Shown here one piece after another: positions 3,329 through 50,841 of a stretch of 64,000 bases of DNA. The DNA lies in contig JAIBAT010000031.1 in NCBI GenBank assembly GCA_019695055.1, positions 1 through 64,000 on the forward strand, in the 5' to 3' direction. The number at the start of each line of letters is the position of its first letter. Position 1 is the stretch's first letter. The position numbers and the translations under genes are program-made. Under the pieces are notes generated by a model, which searched no databases, was not told the origin of the DNA, and saw only the letters and a list, made by a program, of their open reading frames with translations. The DNA is from Candidatus Sumerlaeaceae bacterium (GTDB lineage: Bacteria; Sumerlaeota; Sumerlaeia; Sumerlaeales; Sumerlaeaceae).

Positions 3329-4951
3329 TCAGTTCACGTCCGGGTCTTTGAGGTTGAGCGAAGCCGTGGTGCCGAAAACGTTGTTGGCGTCGTCACTGAT
3401 GCTCTGAGCGCGAGTCATGGTGGCCCCTGCGGCAGTATTGTTGAGGCTGAGGTAGCCCTGGAATGTGGAGCCGTAAATGCGGGCGTTGGCGTCGCAGTTG
3501 GTGCCATTAGAGCCCCAGATGCAGTTTTCCATGCGCCCGCTGAAGGCTCCGCCCCAAGGGCCAATCAACCGGCAGTGGTAGAGTTTGGCGCCGCTGGTTG
3601 ACCCTCCGCTGCCGAAAGAGTCGGTCAGGCCGGTACAGTTTATAAACATACCGTTGGCAACACCGTCGGCGCCGCCGAAGGAGTAGTCGCCGCCGTTGCA
3701 ATTTGTGAACGTTCCGCTCGCCGTGCCGGCACCTCCAAACGAGTAGTTACCGCCGGTGCAATTTGTGAACGTTCCGCTTGCCGTGCCGCCTTCGCCGCCA
3801 AAAGAGTGTGTGGTGCCTTTGCAGTTCGTGAAGGTTCCACTCGCGACGCCTCCGCCACCGAAGCCGTCAACGTCGGTTGACGTGCAGTTGGTGAAGGTGC
3901 CACTCGCAAGGCCCTGGTCGCCGCCGAACGCGGAGCGGCCGCCCGTACAGTCGATGAACGTCCCGGTCGCCGCGCCCAGGTACCCACCGAAGGCTTCGTT
4001 GCCGCCTTTGCAACCGGTGAACCTCCCGCTGGCCGTTCCCGATGAGCCGCCGAAGATATGATCGCCACCATCGCAGTCCTCGTAGGTACCCGAGTAGTTA
4101 ATGCCAACGCGCATGGCCCAGGCGTGCTGATTGTTCGATTCGAACTTGCAGTTTCGGATCACCGTGGCGGGCAGGTCGGACTCGGGAAAGTAGGCAGCGA
4201 GGCCGTGGGGAAAATAAACATAGGGAGGGCCGGACGTTTGGGTGCAATGCACGCGCAGGTTCTCCAGGCGCACGTTGTTTGCGGTTTGGCGAAGAACCCC
4301 GGTTGTAACCCCATTCGCCGTGCCAAGGCCGTAAATATACTGGTCGTCGCGGGCGCTGGAGATGCCCGCAATGTCCACAAATTCCGTGTCCATGACCAAT
4401 TGGTTTGTTCCCAAGTCGTAGTTGCCCGGCGCAACCAGCACGACGGCGCGGTTGTCCGCGGAAAGAGGCTGGCCGTGCGGTGTCAGCGCCTTTGCGCGGT
4501 TGTATGCCGCGATCAGGTTTGACCCATTGGTCGAGGCGCTGGCAGTTACTTCGGCAACAACATAAGCCGGGCCGGATGATGGCAGGGCGTTGAGCGCGAA
4601 GGCGACCGGTGTCACCCGTCTGCGGGGCGTCACGTCTGTTCCATCCACATTCGCGTTCAGCCAAACGCCGTTGGAGGCAAATATTGACGCCGGGATGAGG
4701 TTTCCGGGATCGTCGCCGACGTCGGTGGAGAAGACGCCGTTCACGGGAAGCACGGAATCCGTGTCGGAAAATCCGCCGCCGAGCTGGTTGCCACCACTGG
4801 CGGCATCCCAGAAGGTGAAGGTGACGTCCACAATGGAGTTGATGGGTTGGCCATTGCTGTCGGTAACCTTTGCCTCGTAGCTCAGGATGCCGGGAGTGGC
4901 GCCAGCCTGTAGCGAATACAGCAGGAAGGCCAGGGTGGCAAAACGTCTCAT
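3329..4951 (-). CDS. secreted Cys-ladder beta-helix repeat protein, copy 2
   Basis: This 540-aa paralogue of the upstream gene has a signal peptide (1-18), then an N-terminal module (about 20-120: LSYEAKVTDSNGQP, FTFWDAA, TPRRRVTPVAFALNA) that recurs at the front of many bacterial secreted structural proteins. A parallel beta-helix-like region follows. From about residue 285 to 430 a unit of about 20-24 residues recurs, each with the core TASGTFTNC then a Gly-rich SFGG turn. One Cys and one Phe per rung would stack as ladders. Its ATG overlaps the stop of the upstream copy by one base (TGATG), so the two are translationally coupled. Probable surface or matrix protein; no catalytic residues seen. 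Confidence 0.8.
   Translation of the reverse strand: MRRFATLAFLLYSLQAGATPGILSYEAKVTDSNGQPINSIVDVTFTFWDAASGGNQLGGGFSDTDSVLPVNGVFSTDVGDDPGNLIPASIFASNGVWLNANVDGTDVTPRRRVTPVAFALNALPSSGPAYVVAEVTASASTNGSNLIAAYNRAKALTPHGQPLSADNRAVVLVAPGNYDLGTNQLVMDTEFVDIAGISSARDDQYIYGLGTANGVTTGVLRQTANNVRLENLRVHCTQTSGPPYVYFPHGLAAYFPESDLPATVIRNCKFESNNQHAWAMRVGINYSGTYEDCDGGDHIFGGSSGTASGRFTGCKGGNEAFGGYLGAATGTFIDCTGGRSAFGGDQGLASGTFTNCTSTDVDGFGGGGVASGTFTNCKGTTHSFGGEGGTASGTFTNCTGGNYSFGGAGTASGTFTNCNGGDYSFGGADGVANGMFINCTGLTDSFGSGGSTSGAKLYHCRLIGPWGGAFSGRMENCIWGSNGTNCDANARIYGSTFQGYLSLNNTAAGATMTRAQSISDDANNVFGTTASLNLKDPDVN
3655..4075. repeat. degenerate tandem coding repeats (60-72 bp units)
   Basis: Within the gene, near-identical phrases encoding GTFTNC plus a Gly/Ser-Phe turn recur about every 60-72 bp (plus-strand reading contains gtgaacgttccgct-type cores). 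These are protein repeats. Unit length varies and they lie in frame, so this is not a CRISPR array. Such tracts can shrink or grow by recombination with the matching tract at 5280-5690. Confidence 0.75.
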
Positions 4952-6582
4952 CAGTTTACGCTCACATTTGCGTTCTCAACATTGAGCGCGGCGGCGCTCG
5001 TGCCGCCGAAAACGTTGTTGCCCTCGTTGGTGATATCCGTGGCGCGGGTCATTGTGACGCCGGCGGCTGTGTTGTTAAGGTCAATGGTTCCGGCGAAGGT
5101 GCAGCTGTAAATTCTGGCGTTGGCATTGCAGGTTATTCCGGGACCCCAGGTGCAGTTTTCCATCCGGCCACCGAAAGTTCCCGACCATACGCCAAGCAAC
5201 CGACAGCCAACGAGCTGGGCGCCGTTTGTGGAACCGCCACCGCCGAAGGAACCGGAAACGGCCGAGCAGTACTGGAATTTACCCGACGCATTGCCGCCCC
5301 CTCCACCAAAAGAGTCGGCTCCCCCGGTGCAATTCACGAAAGTTCCGCTCGCCGTGCCGGAATTGCCGCCGAAGGTGCCGTAAGGGGCGGTGCAGTTGGT
5401 AAACGTTCCGATTGCCGCGCCGCCATACCCGCCGAAGCTCGCGTAGTCTGCGGTGCAGTTGGTAAACGTTCCACTTGCCGTGCCGCCATACCCGCCGAAC
5501 GCCCCGACGGCGCCGGTGCAGTTGGTAAACGTACCGCTTGCTGTTCCGAAGGCGCCGAAGGATGAATTCCCGGCAGTGCAATTTGTGAACACCCCATTCG
5601 CCGTGCCGTCTTTTCCAAACGAATAATGACCAGCCGCGCAGTTGGTAAACGTCCCGCTCGCCGTGCCGCCAGCCATGCTGAAGCCTCCGCCGAAAGCATA
5701 TTGTCCGCCGGTGCACTTCTCGTAGGTCCCGGCATAGATGGCCCCCAGTCTCATGGACCAAGCTTGTGTGTCATTGGCTTCAAACGTGCAGTTCCGAATG
5801 ACAGACTGCGGGAAGCCGCCATCGGGAAAGTATGCCGCCGGATCGGAGGAGTTGTCCATTACAAGCCCGCTTGACCGAGTACAACGCACGCGCAGGTTTT
5901 CAATCCTCACGTCGTTCGCCGTCTGATGCAGGACGCCTGTACCGGCATCGTTGGCGGCCCCAAGGATGTACTGATCATCGCGAATGGAGGAGAGGCCAAT
6001 CACGTCCACGAATTCCGTGTCGAGTAGCAACTCACTTGTTCCGAGGTCGTAGTTGCCCGGCGGAACAATCACGGTGGCCCGATTCTGGGCGGAGAGCGCC
6101 TGCCCATGGGGCAACAGCGCCTTGGCGCGGTTGTAAGCCGCGAGGAGGTTTGTGCCGTTAGTGGCCGCGTTGTTTGTCACCTCGGTGATGGCATAGGCCG
6201 AGCCAAAGAGCGAGACGGCGTTCAGGGCATACCCGCTGGCAGCGATGCGGGTGCGGGGGGTTACGTCATTTCCCCCCACGTTCACGTTAAGCCAAACCGA
6301 ATCGGATGCAAAGACTGAGGCTGGGACGGGATTGCTGGGGTCGTCGCCGATGTTCGTGGAGCAGACGCCGTTGGCGGGAGTCACGGAATCAGTGTCGGAG
6401 AAACCGCCGCCGAGCTGGGTGCCCGAGGTGGCGGCGTCCCAGAAGGTGAAGGTGATGTTCACTGTGGAATTGAGGGGCAGACCGTTGCTGTCGGTCAGCT
6501 TGGCCTGGTAGTTAATAAGGCCCGGTGCGGCATGGGCCGACAGGGCGGAAAGCAATAGACTCAAGACGATCAAACGTCGCAT
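4951..6582 (-). CDS. secreted Cys-ladder beta-helix repeat protein, copy 1
   Basis: This 543-aa secreted protein is paralogous to the gene that follows it (same length, same order of parts). It has a signal peptide (1-18), the shared N-terminal module (INYQAKLTDSNGLP, TFTFWDAAT, TPRTRIAASGYALNA), then a beta-helix-like region (about 150-290). About eight rungs follow (about 295-470) with the core GTASGTFTNC and a Gly-rich turn. C-terminal to these both copies share a capping stretch (GGRMENCTWG, NNTAAGVTMTRA, NNVFGG). Each rung has a Cys preceded by Asn, the pattern expected for a stacked Asn/Cys ladder. The fold is inferred from the periodicity. Likely a surface fibre, adhesin or matrix component. 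Confidence 0.8.
   Translation of the reverse strand: MRRLIVLSLLLSALSAHAAPGLINYQAKLTDSNGLPLNSTVNITFTFWDAATSGTQLGGGFSDTDSVTPANGVCSTNIGDDPSNPVPASVFASDSVWLNVNVGGNDVTPRTRIAASGYALNAVSLFGSAYAITEVTNNAATNGTNLLAAYNRAKALLPHGQALSAQNRATVIVPPGNYDLGTSELLLDTEFVDVIGLSSIRDDQYILGAANDAGTGVLHQTANDVRIENLRVRCTRSSGLVMDNSSDPAAYFPDGGFPQSVIRNCTFEANDTQAWSMRLGAIYAGTYEKCTGGQYAFGGGFSMAGGTASGTFTNCAAGHYSFGKDGTANGVFTNCTAGNSSFGAFGTASGTFTNCTGAVGAFGGYGGTASGTFTNCTADYASFGGYGGAAIGTFTNCTAPYGTFGGNSGTASGTFVNCTGGADSFGGGGGNASGKFQYCSAVSGSFGGGGSTNGAQLVGCRLLGVWSGTFGGRMENCTWGPGITCNANARIYSCTFAGTIDLNNTAAGVTMTRATDITNEGNNVFGGTSAAALNVENANVSVN
5280..5690. repeat. degenerate tandem coding repeats (60-72 bp units)
   Basis: In-frame repeats encode the GTFTNC rungs of the first beta-helix protein. 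The plus strand shows the phrase gcagttggtaaacgt recurring at intervals of about 60-70 bp, with the intervening sequence also partly conserved. They are homologous to the tract at 3655-4075, giving two direct-repeat blocks about 1.6 kb apart that could recombine. Confidence 0.75.
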
Positions 6583-39643: not shown

Positions 39644-40687
39644 TTAGGTCGTTTTCTTTTCCTCCCGCTCCGTCAGCGCCATCACCAGCGCGAACGGAAT
39701 CGCCCATACGATATACTGCAGGAAGAACACGCTGTTGAACCACACGAACCCCGCCATCACGAGGAACACCCCCGCCACGAGCCCCACCTGGCGCCGCGCC
39801 ACCAGCCACGTCGCCGTCCCCACCGCCAGCAGCATCGGGATCCGGCTCAGGTGGTCCTCCCAGTCCAGCGCTACATCCACCGATAGCAGATGGTAGTGGA
39901 CCATTGCATCCCGCGTAAACGAGAACAGCATCGTCTTTACAAACGCGTAAGGCGCTGCAATCAGGTACGGCAGGCTCACCACCAGCGGCACCGCCGCCAT
40001 CGCCCCCACCGCCCAGGCCATGGCGCCCCGCCGCCGTTCCGGTGGCGTCCCCTGCCACTGGGCCACCAGCAGTACCGGCACCGCCAGGATCGCGATATGC
40101 TTGATGCTCAGCGACACCCCCAGCGCCAGCCACGCCCATCGTGGCCATCGCTCCAACAGCATCACGCACAGCACAAAGAAGAAAAGCGCCACAAAATCCG
40201 TGTGCGCGATCACCAGCACATGCAGCGACCAGCGGTTGAACAGCCACAGCCCCGACGCCAACAACGCCGTCGCCAGCCGCCCCCGCGGCCCATACACCAG
40301 CGCGAAGACCAACACCCCGATACCCGCCCAGAAAACCACCGAAACCCCGCGCCACACCAGCAGCCACCGGTCAAAGTCCCCAAGCCCCATCGCCTCGAAG
40401 CCCGCCGCCAGCAGGTAGATTCCCGGCAGGTACGTCGCGTACTTGTGGTTGCGCTCCATATTCCCCGCCGTGATACGCGCGTAGGGGTTCTCGCCCCTCA
40501 GGATACCCTGCCCCTCTTGGAAGATATAGCGGATGTCCTCCTCCGGCCCCAGGGTGAAATTCGTCTGCACCGCCATTCGCACCAGCAGCCCCGCGCAGAT
40601 CAGCGCCCACGCCACCATCACCGCGTAATGCCACCGCGGTGGCTGCCTCATCCGTGCCGACAAGCTGCAATTTGCAAGATTATCCAT
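39644..40687 (-). CDS. polytopic membrane glycosyltransferase, GT-C (DUF2029/GT87-like)
   Basis: This 347-aa integral membrane protein has about nine hydrophobic segments. After the first segment a periplasmic loop carries the acidic and aromatic motif PEEDIRYIFQEGQGILRGENPYA, as in GT87-type mannosyltransferases using polyprenyl-phosphate sugars. Further on it shows SIKHIAILAVPVLL and FNSVFFLQYIVWAIPFALV, which fit that group. It would transfer a sugar from a lipid-linked donor on the outer face of the membrane. ATG 40687 is used; ATG 40651 is possible. The 539 bp upstream hold one of two copies of a conserved composite non-coding module. Confidence 0.75.
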   Translation of the reverse strand: MDNLANCSLSARMRQPPRWHYAVMVAWALICAGLLVRMAVQTNFTLGPEEDIRYIFQEGQGILRGENPYARITAGNMERNHKYATYLPGIYLLAAGFEAMGLGDFDRWLLVWRGVSVVFWAGIGVLVFALVYGPRGRLATALLASGLWLFNRWSLHVLVIAHTDFVALFFFVLCVMLLERWPRWAWLALGVSLSIKHIAILAVPVLLVAQWQGTPPERRRGAMAWAVGAMAAVPLVVSLPYLIAAPYAFVKTMLFSFTRDAMVHYHLLSVDVALDWEDHLSRIPMLLAVGTATWLVARRQVGLVAGVFLVMAGFVWFNSVFFLQYIVWAIPFALVMALTEREEKKTT

Positions 40688-40905
40688 GACTGGCACCCAA
40701 CCCCGCCACCCATGGGCCGCGCAAGCCCTAAAGAACCACCGTCCACCGACCCAACCACGTAATAGATGCAAAGTCGGAACAGGCAAACATTCGAGCCTGC
40801 TCCGCCCACCCTGCGCCCCCACCGGTTCAACTACCCCCACTCGCGCCGTCGCGCCTCCGCAACTTTGTGTCATTGCGTTGGCTTTGAACCCCCGGGCTTC
40901 ATTGC

Positions 40906-40968
40906 ATGGGTCCGGAAGGGGTTGTAAGAGGCTGCAAGGGAATAGACAAACCCTTTTCCCCGTGCTAG
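40906..40968 (-). ncRNA. conserved intergenic element, copy A (structured RNA candidate)
   Basis: Read toward the glycosyltransferase gene, this 63-nt element matches copy B (50760-50823) along its whole length. Highly similar blocks are CTATTCCCTT, a CAG core, and CAACCCCTT followed by GGACCCAT. It can fold as GGG-(T)-TTGT ... ACAA-CCC around a 20-nt loop. In copy B the closing pair changes from T-A to C-G, a compensatory change. Function unknown; the strand given is that of the downstream gene. Confidence 0.5.
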
Positions 40969-41026
40969 ACCCACCCCCGGTTAAGTCGCTCGGTCTTCAT
41001 TCACCCAACCCGTGCGACTCACTGCC

Positions 41027-41096
41027 AAAATGTGCACTTTCACGCACATTTGGATCGGTTTTAATCCACGAAATCTTGCGATTTAAATCGATCCAA
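41027..41096 (-). other. two mutually exclusive hairpins
   Basis: On the strand of the glycosyltransferase gene, TTGGATCG (41096-41089) can pair with CGATCCAA (41057-41050), while CCAAATGTGC (41054-41045) can pair with GCACATTTTGG just beyond. The shared CCAA means only one stem forms at a time, as in attenuator or riboswitch-like leaders. GATTTAAATC at 41089-41080 is an additional palindrome. No ligand class was recognised. Confidence 0.45.
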
Positions 41097-41154
41097 GCGC
41101 ACCACAAAGAAACAATGACCATTGATAAAAAAGGAGTTATGCAAATTCATGTCA

Positions 41155-41176
41155 CCCCCCCTCCCCCCTCCCCCTC
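41155..41176 (-). repeat. purine G-run tract A
   Basis: On the minus strand this reads as G-runs of 5, 6 and 7 separated by single A. It could form a G-quadruplex or be prone to slippage. The last G is 187 nt before the start of element A, the same distance as in copy B. Confidence 0.75.
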
Positions 41177-41226
41177 GAGAACCTGGCCGATTGGGAGCGT
41201 CGGCGATCCCACGGGGCGGGAAATAA

Positions 41227-42237
41227 TTACGGGTGGTGGGGGGAAGGCGCGGCTTTCTTATCCAGCCAAACCAGTTTCGGTTTACCCTTGGCCCGGGCGG
41301 CGTCCACGAGTTTGCGGAGGGTGCCGTCCTGGATGTATCGGTACAGGTTTTCCCCCGGGCACGACGAATCGGCCAGGTCGCGGTGGCCGTAGATCTTCAG
41401 CGGGTCGATCTTGAACTCCTCGGCGGCCCAGGCCATCATCGCCGCGATGGAAACAAGTTGCTGCGCGTTGGGCTCCACCTTGCTGTAGTTGCCAAAACAG
41501 TTGATCAGGAAATGGCCGCGCGGGTCGTAGCGGGTGTTCGTGTCGCCCACATAGTGGTAATCGCGGGCTTCGTAAACGCCGCCGTCGAGGTCGATGAAGA
41601 AGTGGTACGGCACGTCGAACCAGTTGCGGTCCGATTCGCCCCAGAGTTGCATGCCCCGCAGCTTCGTGGTGATGTCGTCATTCGCCAAATGGTTTGTCGC
41701 GCTGTGATGGAGGGTCAATTTGTCGATGGTGTGTTTCACCCGCAGGCGCGACTCGGCCCCGCCAGCTCTTGTAGCCTCCGAGACCTGCTTTGGCAGGGAT
41801 TCTATGGTCGCCACCTCAACCACGGTGGACCCAAAGCCCAGGTCGCCGCGCTTGGCGTAGATGGCCACTATGGCGACGTGGTAGCCGTTCCAGTTAAAGG
41901 CCGCGCCCTCGTCCAGGGTGCGCGTCTCGGTCGTTTTGCCGTTCGTCAGCACCACGGTCACCGTGTCGCGCTCGCCCTCTTTTTGGGAAGCCGTAGTCGT
42001 GGTCACCGTCACGGACACATCGCGGAATTTCATCGAGTCCTTCGGGGCGAGGTTCATGCGCAGCCCGTCGGCGTCCACGCCCTTCGGCGCGATCTCGCTC
42101 CATGTCGAGTGTCGGTGGATTTCCACCGTCAGCGGTCCGGTGCTCGCCGCGATGGAGGCCAGCGCATCATCTCCGGCGTTGGCCATGCACACGGCCGAGG
42201 CCGCAAGCAGGGTAAGTGACAATAGTATGTTTCGCAT
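41227..42237 (-). CDS. N-acetylmuramoyl-L-alanine amidase, PGRP/AmiD type
   Basis: This 336-aa exported protein has a signal peptide (1-22). The first half (about 25-180) is beta-rich with a domain resembling cytochrome-c-assembly or ABC-regulatory beta folds and no clear family. The second half is an Amidase_2/PGRP domain with zinc ligands in LTLHHSATNH and YGHRDLADSSCPG, and typical phrases DVPYHFFIDLDGGVYEARD and GHFLINCFGNY. It cuts the bond between muramic acid and L-Ala in peptidoglycan, in cell-wall turnover or recycling. ATG 42237 puts the signal peptide at the N terminus. Confidence 0.9.
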   Translation of the reverse strand: MRNILLSLTLLAASAVCMANAGDDALASIAASTGPLTVEIHRHSTWSEIAPKGVDADGLRMNLAPKDSMKFRDVSVTVTTTTASQKEGERDTVTVVLTNGKTTETRTLDEGAAFNWNGYHVAIVAIYAKRGDLGFGSTVVEVATIESLPKQVSEATRAGGAESRLRVKHTIDKLTLHHSATNHLANDDITTKLRGMQLWGESDRNWFDVPYHFFIDLDGGVYEARDYHYVGDTNTRYDPRGHFLINCFGNYSKVEPNAQQLVSIAAMMAWAAEEFKIDPLKIYGHRDLADSSCPGENLYRYIQDGTLRKLVDAARAKGKPKLVWLDKKAAPSPHHP

Positions 42238-50450: not shown

Positions 50451-50548
50451 GGTTCGGGTCTACCCTAACCGTTGGCGGGGTGTGGGCATTCGCATCGGAA
50501 AGTCCATAATCGGACATGGGAGACGGGGAATGTTATTCATGAAAAACG

Positions 50549-50573
50549 GAGGGGGGGAGGGGGAGGGGGGGGG
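50549..50573 (+). repeat. purine G-run tract B
   Basis: G-runs of 2, 7, 5 and 9 are separated by single A residues, with G-quadruplex potential. The last G is 187 nt before the first base of element B, identical to the spacing at copy A (41155 to 40968). Confidence 0.75.
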
Positions 50574-50759
50574 AATTTTCGGGTTTTGCGCATTTTTGAT
50601 GCAAAGCCATTGGTGACAGCGATTGGCGCGGCTGAAAAATGGCGTTATAATTATGGTCATTTTTGCATTTATGGAGGATGCTGTTCGGGTGAGACAGGGG
50701 AGCGGCGACGTGAGGCTTGTGGGGGTATGGGTTCGTTGTGTTTTCATGATGGAGTGAAG

Positions 50760-50823
50760 CTAACACAACGGGTGCGGGCTTGCCTATTCCCTTACAGACG
50801 CTTGCAACCCCTTGTGGACCCAT
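50760..50823 (+). ncRNA. conserved intergenic element, copy B (structured RNA candidate)
   Basis: This 64-nt element matches copy A (40968-40906 on the minus strand). The hairpin GGG-(C)-TTGC ... GCAA-CCC (50776-50783 with 50804-50810) encloses a 20-nt loop, CTATTCCCTT then ACAGACGCTT. Loop length and bulge position equal those of copy A, and the closing pair is C-G where copy A has T-A. It ends 89 bp before the DUF1697 start. Confidence 0.5.
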
Positions 50824-50841
50824 ATTTTGAAAGTGCCCGTC

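Follow-up and report, generated by a model that had tools for sequence, protein, structure and literature searches.

A promoter-like element shared by dispersed phage genes and amplified in one Sumerlaeota genome: a probable GTA-like gene set in Sumerlaeia

The element that recurs in the window, the whole analysed stretch of 64,000 nucleotides, is probably the promoter of a dispersed and vertically inherited phage gene set, GTA-like in Sumerlaeia, and amplified in this genome as mostly non-coding units. The observations on which this reading is built are the copy number of the element, its DNA architecture, its placement before phage genes, its conservation in other families and the inheritance of the portal gene. 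The position of the element directly before scattered, inherited capsid genes suggests a GTA-like system in the uncultivated phylum Sumerlaeota, and operation of the set in the manner of a GTA appears to be the best reading of the genomic pattern, the set being known here from its genes.

Composite units in the window and their genome-wide family

The minus strand carries a G-run, GAGGGGGAGGGGGGAGGGGGGG (41155-41176), and downstream of it an element of ~84 nt (40984-40902). A second composite exhibits the same relative order, with a G-run at 50548-50575 and then an element at 50744-50826. The composites span 40902-41176 and 50548-50826, and with 118 element copies genome-wide their recurrence lies far beyond chance; the pairing of G-run and element, claimed in the original prediction for this region, is borne out by the same order at both sites. 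The prediction had also placed the first unit upstream of a glycosyltransferase gene, which is correct by position, but the promoter-like strand points away from that gene. Its use as a promoter for either neighbour, the glycosyltransferase gene or the DUF1697-like gene, was rejected because of this wrong orientation. The features of the two copies are listed below, the -35-like hexamers being assigned from the sequence and the two elements from profile matches.

40902-40984, plus strand: element copy A, putative promoter, pointing to the G/C-run and away from the glycosyltransferase gene
40914-40942, plus strand: AAG-type repeats of copy A at 10-bp spacing, with AAG at 40916, 40926 and 40936, running into GGGAA at 40938
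40943-40948, plus strand: -35-like hexamer TAGACA of copy A, one of the six hexamers of the family
40966-40971, plus strand: -10-like hexamer TAGACC of copy A after a 17-nt spacer, without the final T of YANNNT
41048-41096, no strand assigned: two near-palindromes of copy A, operator-like, ATTTGGATCGGTTTTAAT at 41048 and ATTTAAATCGATCCAA at 41081, kept in the 30-member G-run subfamily
41155-41176, minus strand: G-run of copy A, far end of the unit, a C-run on the promoter strand
50744-50826, minus strand: element copy B, putative promoter, pointing to its own G-run and away from the DUF1697-like gene
50781-50786, minus strand: -35-like hexamer TAGGCA of copy B
50757-50762, minus strand: -10-like hexamer TAGCTT of copy B after an 18-nt spacer
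50548-50575, plus strand: G-run of copy B

A sequence-profile search of the 4.34-Mb genome of this Sumerlaeota MAG recovered the element 118 times; a second, broader model returned the identical set, no match falling between E = 3e-7 and 0.04. A blastn comparison of the window region with the whole genome gave 49 matches. The 118 copies are distributed over 64 contigs, and their intergenic positions cover all four orientation classes. In about 80 copies a G-run on the same strand lies at a distance of 54-700 nt, and some have other far ends, e.g. TGTCAAACGTTTT. Viral contigs contained no exact match to the element pattern. One locus of this genome (C70:50639-51612) holds three element copies in tandem within 1 kb, and the flanks of many copies (e.g. 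loci L015, L039 and L045) carry purine-rich simple repeats, ACCACCAAATCACCAAAGCACCAAAAG and TTCTGAATTTTGAATTCTGAATTCTGAG, often after the promoter end. Elsewhere in the window, positions 3365-6531, apparently a repetitive coding region, contain long internal repeats of 118-280 nt that are 70-77% alike.

Promoter-like architecture of the element

On the strand opposite to that first described, all 118 copies exhibit GGGAA followed by a -35-like hexamer, which is TAGGCA in 95 copies, TATGCA in 11, TAGACA in 5, TTGACA in 3, TTCCCA in 3 and TAGGTA in 1. The dinucleotide [T/C]A follows this hexamer after 17 nt (53 copies) or 18 nt (65 copies), which accounts for 118/118, and YA at other spacers is found in 0-17 copies each. 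The final T completing YANNNT is present in 66 of 118 copies. Upstream, AAG-type triplets occur at -12 (110 copies), -22 (95) and -32 (17), forming YAAG repeats every 10 bp. From this layout we infer a -35/-10 promoter whose activator repeats share one face of the helix.

A plain sigma-70 scan (at least 9/12 to TTGACA/TATAAT) called no site in 40600-41300. Weak hexamers at constant spacing, as in activator-dependent promoters, are expected to be missed by such a scan, and the miss is also a caution. Sigma-54 and ECF readings were rejected on the grounds that their spacing is unfit or that they fit more poorly than -35/-10 at 17/18 nt.

Evaluation of RNA structure

The original prediction described a conserved hairpin with the stem GGG-Y-TTGY/RCAA-CCC, and the alignment does not bear it out. 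Over 43 distinct rows, 76.7% of the cells of this stem were paired vs 77.4% in shuffles, 464 of 500 shuffles paired as often, and the covariation score was below the shuffled mean; RNAalifold predicted zero pairs on the element alignment. The change of the closing pair from T-A to C-G, offered as compensatory, is present between the two window copies, but the stem to which it belongs shows no covariation above shuffles over the 43 rows. Since TTTGCCTATTCCC, which contains the left arm of the stem, is nearly invariant and its supposed partner RCAA varies freely, this change provides no evidence of a stem. The search for further copies, which the prediction itself had named as its test, yielded many copies but no compensatory changes among them.

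It is therefore extremely unlikely that the element is a structured RNA, cis-regulatory or small, with the originally proposed hairpin. Besides the closing-pair change, an alternative GGGAATAGG/CCTATTCCC stem, which is possible in some copies, would speak for such an RNA; this 9-bp stem, like the first, does not covary above shuffles, no consensus structure emerges, and the conserved blocks fit -35/-10 spacing instead. The proposal of a cis-regulatory RNA on the GGG-Y-TTGY/RCAA-CCC stem is accordingly left unsupported. No Rfam family reached its gathering score within the window.

Phage genes downstream of the element

Only 11 copies have an ORF start ~20-50 nt downstream on the promoter strand, with gene starts taken from a simple gene caller. 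These ORFs comprise two TerL genes, a Mu-type portal gene, an endolysin-like gene, a holin-like gene (labelled by size and hydrophobicity only) and six members of one small-ORF family. For both TerL genes the caller had picked an internal start, and an in-frame ATG near the element gives the full protein. The portal is the first gene of a cluster on contig C168, followed by genes for a head-maturation protease, decoration/scaffold, major head and head-tail adaptor, and the cluster is flanked by host-type genes at either end. Profile matches were obtained for TerL (phrog_38, 1.5e-54), portal (PF06074, 2e-87), protease (phrog_976, 3e-41), major head (phrog_1005, 1e-82) and adaptor (phrog_195, 1e-16). 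The TerL genes (C90 and C51), the endolysin-like gene (C67) and the holin-like gene (C19) are isolated among host genes. In the flanks of the structural loci looked at, no replication or integration genes were recognised by eye. On C90, an excisionase/AlpA-like HTH gene (phrog_66, 1e-7; L139:2563-2814) overlaps the region just upstream of TerL and its element and may be a regulator candidate.

The product of the small ORF is predicted to form a two-helix hairpin (pLDDT 75), for which no significant PDB match was found, and some small ORFs end in an AT-hook-like GRPRK. In some families of the class, small helical ORFs lie directly before TerL. An assignment of the small ORF as small terminase was rejected, there being no profile similarity to the small ORFs before TerL (probability 0.7%).

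Inheritance of portal and TerL across Sumerlaeia

The portal family is present in 32/39 and TerL in 33/39 genomes of the class, mostly as one copy each in separate places; the portal is absent from 14/14 control genomes. In the single-contig genome G005 the two genes are 134 kb apart, and in many class genomes ordinary host genes surround the portal cluster, with further genes following the head genes in some relatives. Among the best 14 portal matches, those named are Sumerlaeota/BRC1 MAGs, two being titled 'bacterium' only. Mapping of host families on the portal tree requires 9 changes for 10 groups, where the minimum is 9, and 0/200 shuffles were as low. Families f2, f7, f12 and f13 each fall on one side of a branch, as does f1 except for one long-branch portal. 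The exceptions are the long-branch portals of G002, G010 and G025; the one in G010 adjoins a terminase of its own, as a portal in a true prophage would. The portal is inherited along host families.

The motif GGGAATTGACA (matched at no fewer than 9 of 11 positions) with YA at 17/18 nt precedes the portal at 7/30 and TerL at 5/30 loci, with ~0.2 expected per set; when the spacer condition is dropped, ~14/30 portals have the motif vs ~2 expected. In families f7 and f13 the portal cluster is retained, and no recognisable motif was found before their portals; a narrow consensus pattern gave few matches over the whole class. Of seven other genomes from the same family, six have no match and G005 has one, before its portal, so that amplification seems particular to this genome among the genomes compared. 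G008, from another family, has 16 weak motif matches, several of them before small ORFs. At four G008 loci (L158, L160, L162 and L166), motif copies are followed by short repeats, e.g. GTAGCCCGAGCGTGAGCGAGGGACAACC, several of them at contig ends, which hints at independent amplification. In G019, the motif is matched ~100 nt before an ORF starting MHIDEFLARLERAKPAPGGWLARCPAHGDRRPSLS, which by eye resembles a CHC2 zinc-finger primase (L149).

These distributions bear on the reading that the scattered phage genes are decaying prophage remnants devoid of GTA-like function, with the element an old late promoter. The genes are homologous to Mu-like and other phage families and several stand singly, as such remnants would. 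Decay over such a depth would not be expected to leave open frames that are long, about one copy in each genome of most of the class, a tree that follows host families or a motif kept across families, which renders this reading fairly unlikely.

Non-coding units and their spread

Such a downstream ORF is missing from about 107 copies, among them the two in the window, and most of these copies end in a G-run. The G-run modules form subfamilies of 30, 13, 8 and fewer members. In the first (30 members, copy A included), two near-palindromic sites lie ~33-40 nt apart. For the downstream module (19 copies), RNAalifold draws a stem from two near-palindromic sites, in which 2/15 pairs are changed on both sides, a weak signal. 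The third subfamily mixes ORF-bearing and ORF-less members; some of the non-coding units, at least, are therefore remnants of ORF-bearing ones. Non-coding copies occur in excess with the G-run end facing a gene start (71 vs 36). At loci L026, L034, L096, L113 and L130, a second block like TTCCCTTAGRACCCCTTA, again the repeat motif of the element, lies between near-palindrome and G-run, within 100 nt of the G-run.

The suggestion of a mobile intergenic repeat, made in the original prediction, holds in so far as 118 copies are dispersed between genes in all orientation classes, but the element is better explained as promoter DNA. Comparison of the left end with the reverse complement of the right end gave a mean longest match of 5.2, equal to that of shuffled pairs, and 2/76 copies share a 6-mer between their flanks against a shuffled mean of 1.9, the right border being uncertain by a few bases. 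A MITE with inverted repeats or target duplication was rejected, neither having been found. On C60, ~400 nt from one copy, lies a transposase gene of the Y1 class (IS200-like, RAYT-type; PF01797, 1.9e-22; L028:2995-3438) that might mobilise small repeats.

A stricter version of this suggestion holds that the family is only a non-autonomous mobile repeat (MITE-, REP- or HUH-element-like) that came to lie before phage genes by insertion. The dispersal of the copies over all orientation classes, three of them within ~1 kb on C70, and the nearby transposase gene agree with it; single motif copies before portal and TerL in families that have no amplified repeat do not, nor do the 20-50 nt to the start codon kept by all 11 ORF-bearing copies or the lack of terminal inverted repeats and target duplications, and we regard it as unlikely. 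For the non-coding copies alone, spread as a mobile unit is likely, so that the promoter and mobile-repeat readings overlap. That the ~107 non-coding units are working parts of a GTA-like system, activated along with the head genes and serving as dispersed packaging-initiation or control sites with the small ORFs as recognition protein, appears very unlikely; the density of the element is about one per 37 kb (118 in 4.3 Mb).

Proposed mechanism

In the preferred reading of the element as the promoter of a GTA-like gene set, the YAAGGGG repeats, placed every 10 bp, would be sites for a putative activator and would run into GGGAA and the -35-like TAGGCA/TTGACA, followed after a spacer of 17 or 18 nt by the -10-like YANNNT. 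The promoter would switch on packaging (TerL), head (portal, protease, decoration, major head and adaptor) and lysis genes (endolysin-like and holin-like) together, and their products would form particles carrying host DNA. The promoter, together with a small ORF or non-coding sequence, would have been copied to ~107 other positions between genes, including two in the window. The non-coding copies would behave as a non-autonomous repeat transcribed with the regulon when the set is on, and a small RNA may arise from these units.

A shared promoter that labels scattered genes offers a handle on the full GTA-like gene set. The multiplication of a phage-type control element about a hundred-fold across a host genome also makes the role of chromosome-wide sites in regulation or packaging testable.

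Comparison with known systems

Pho-box-like activator-dependent promoters possess phased direct repeats overlapping the -35 region. The element resembles them in its direct repeats about one helical turn apart, which run into a poor -35 region, and differs in the repeat sequence, YAAGGGG, and in that its activator is putative. With MITEs and small intergenic repeats it has in common that one genome holds many short intergenic copies, most of them non-coding, whereas its conserved promoter-like sequence, common to phage genes, and its lack of terminal inverted repeats and target duplications set it apart from MITEs. The Mu-like and tailed-phage head modules (PF06074 portal; phrog_113, 976, 673, 1005, 195 and 38) have the same gene order and give strong profile matches. 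The Sumerlaeota cluster differs from them in having no transposase, integrase or tail genes beside it in this genome, with TerL and the lysis-like genes elsewhere and host genes on both sides of the cluster.

The main genomic study of Sumerlaeota mentions neither phage nor GTA (PMC8092238), and no report of GTAs in Sumerlaeota was found in the open-licence literature, so that one may have appeared elsewhere. Outside Alphaproteobacteria, GTAs are difficult to recognise, since their genes are dispersed and resemble prophage remnants; a GTA review describes the genomic signs seen here and likewise points out how hard proof is (PMC11841831). The systems compared were RcGTA, BaGTA, DsGTA and CcGTA and the GTAs of Brachyspira, Desulfovibrio and Methanococcus (PMC11841831). 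The Sumerlaeota set resembles them in that phage-derived packaging and structural genes are kept in most of the lineage, at several separate loci, some of single genes, with inheritance along the host line and a shared control element. It differs from these systems in being known from its genes, in its Mu-type portal cluster, in a common motif with 10-bp repeats and in a promoter amplified ~100-fold in one genome.
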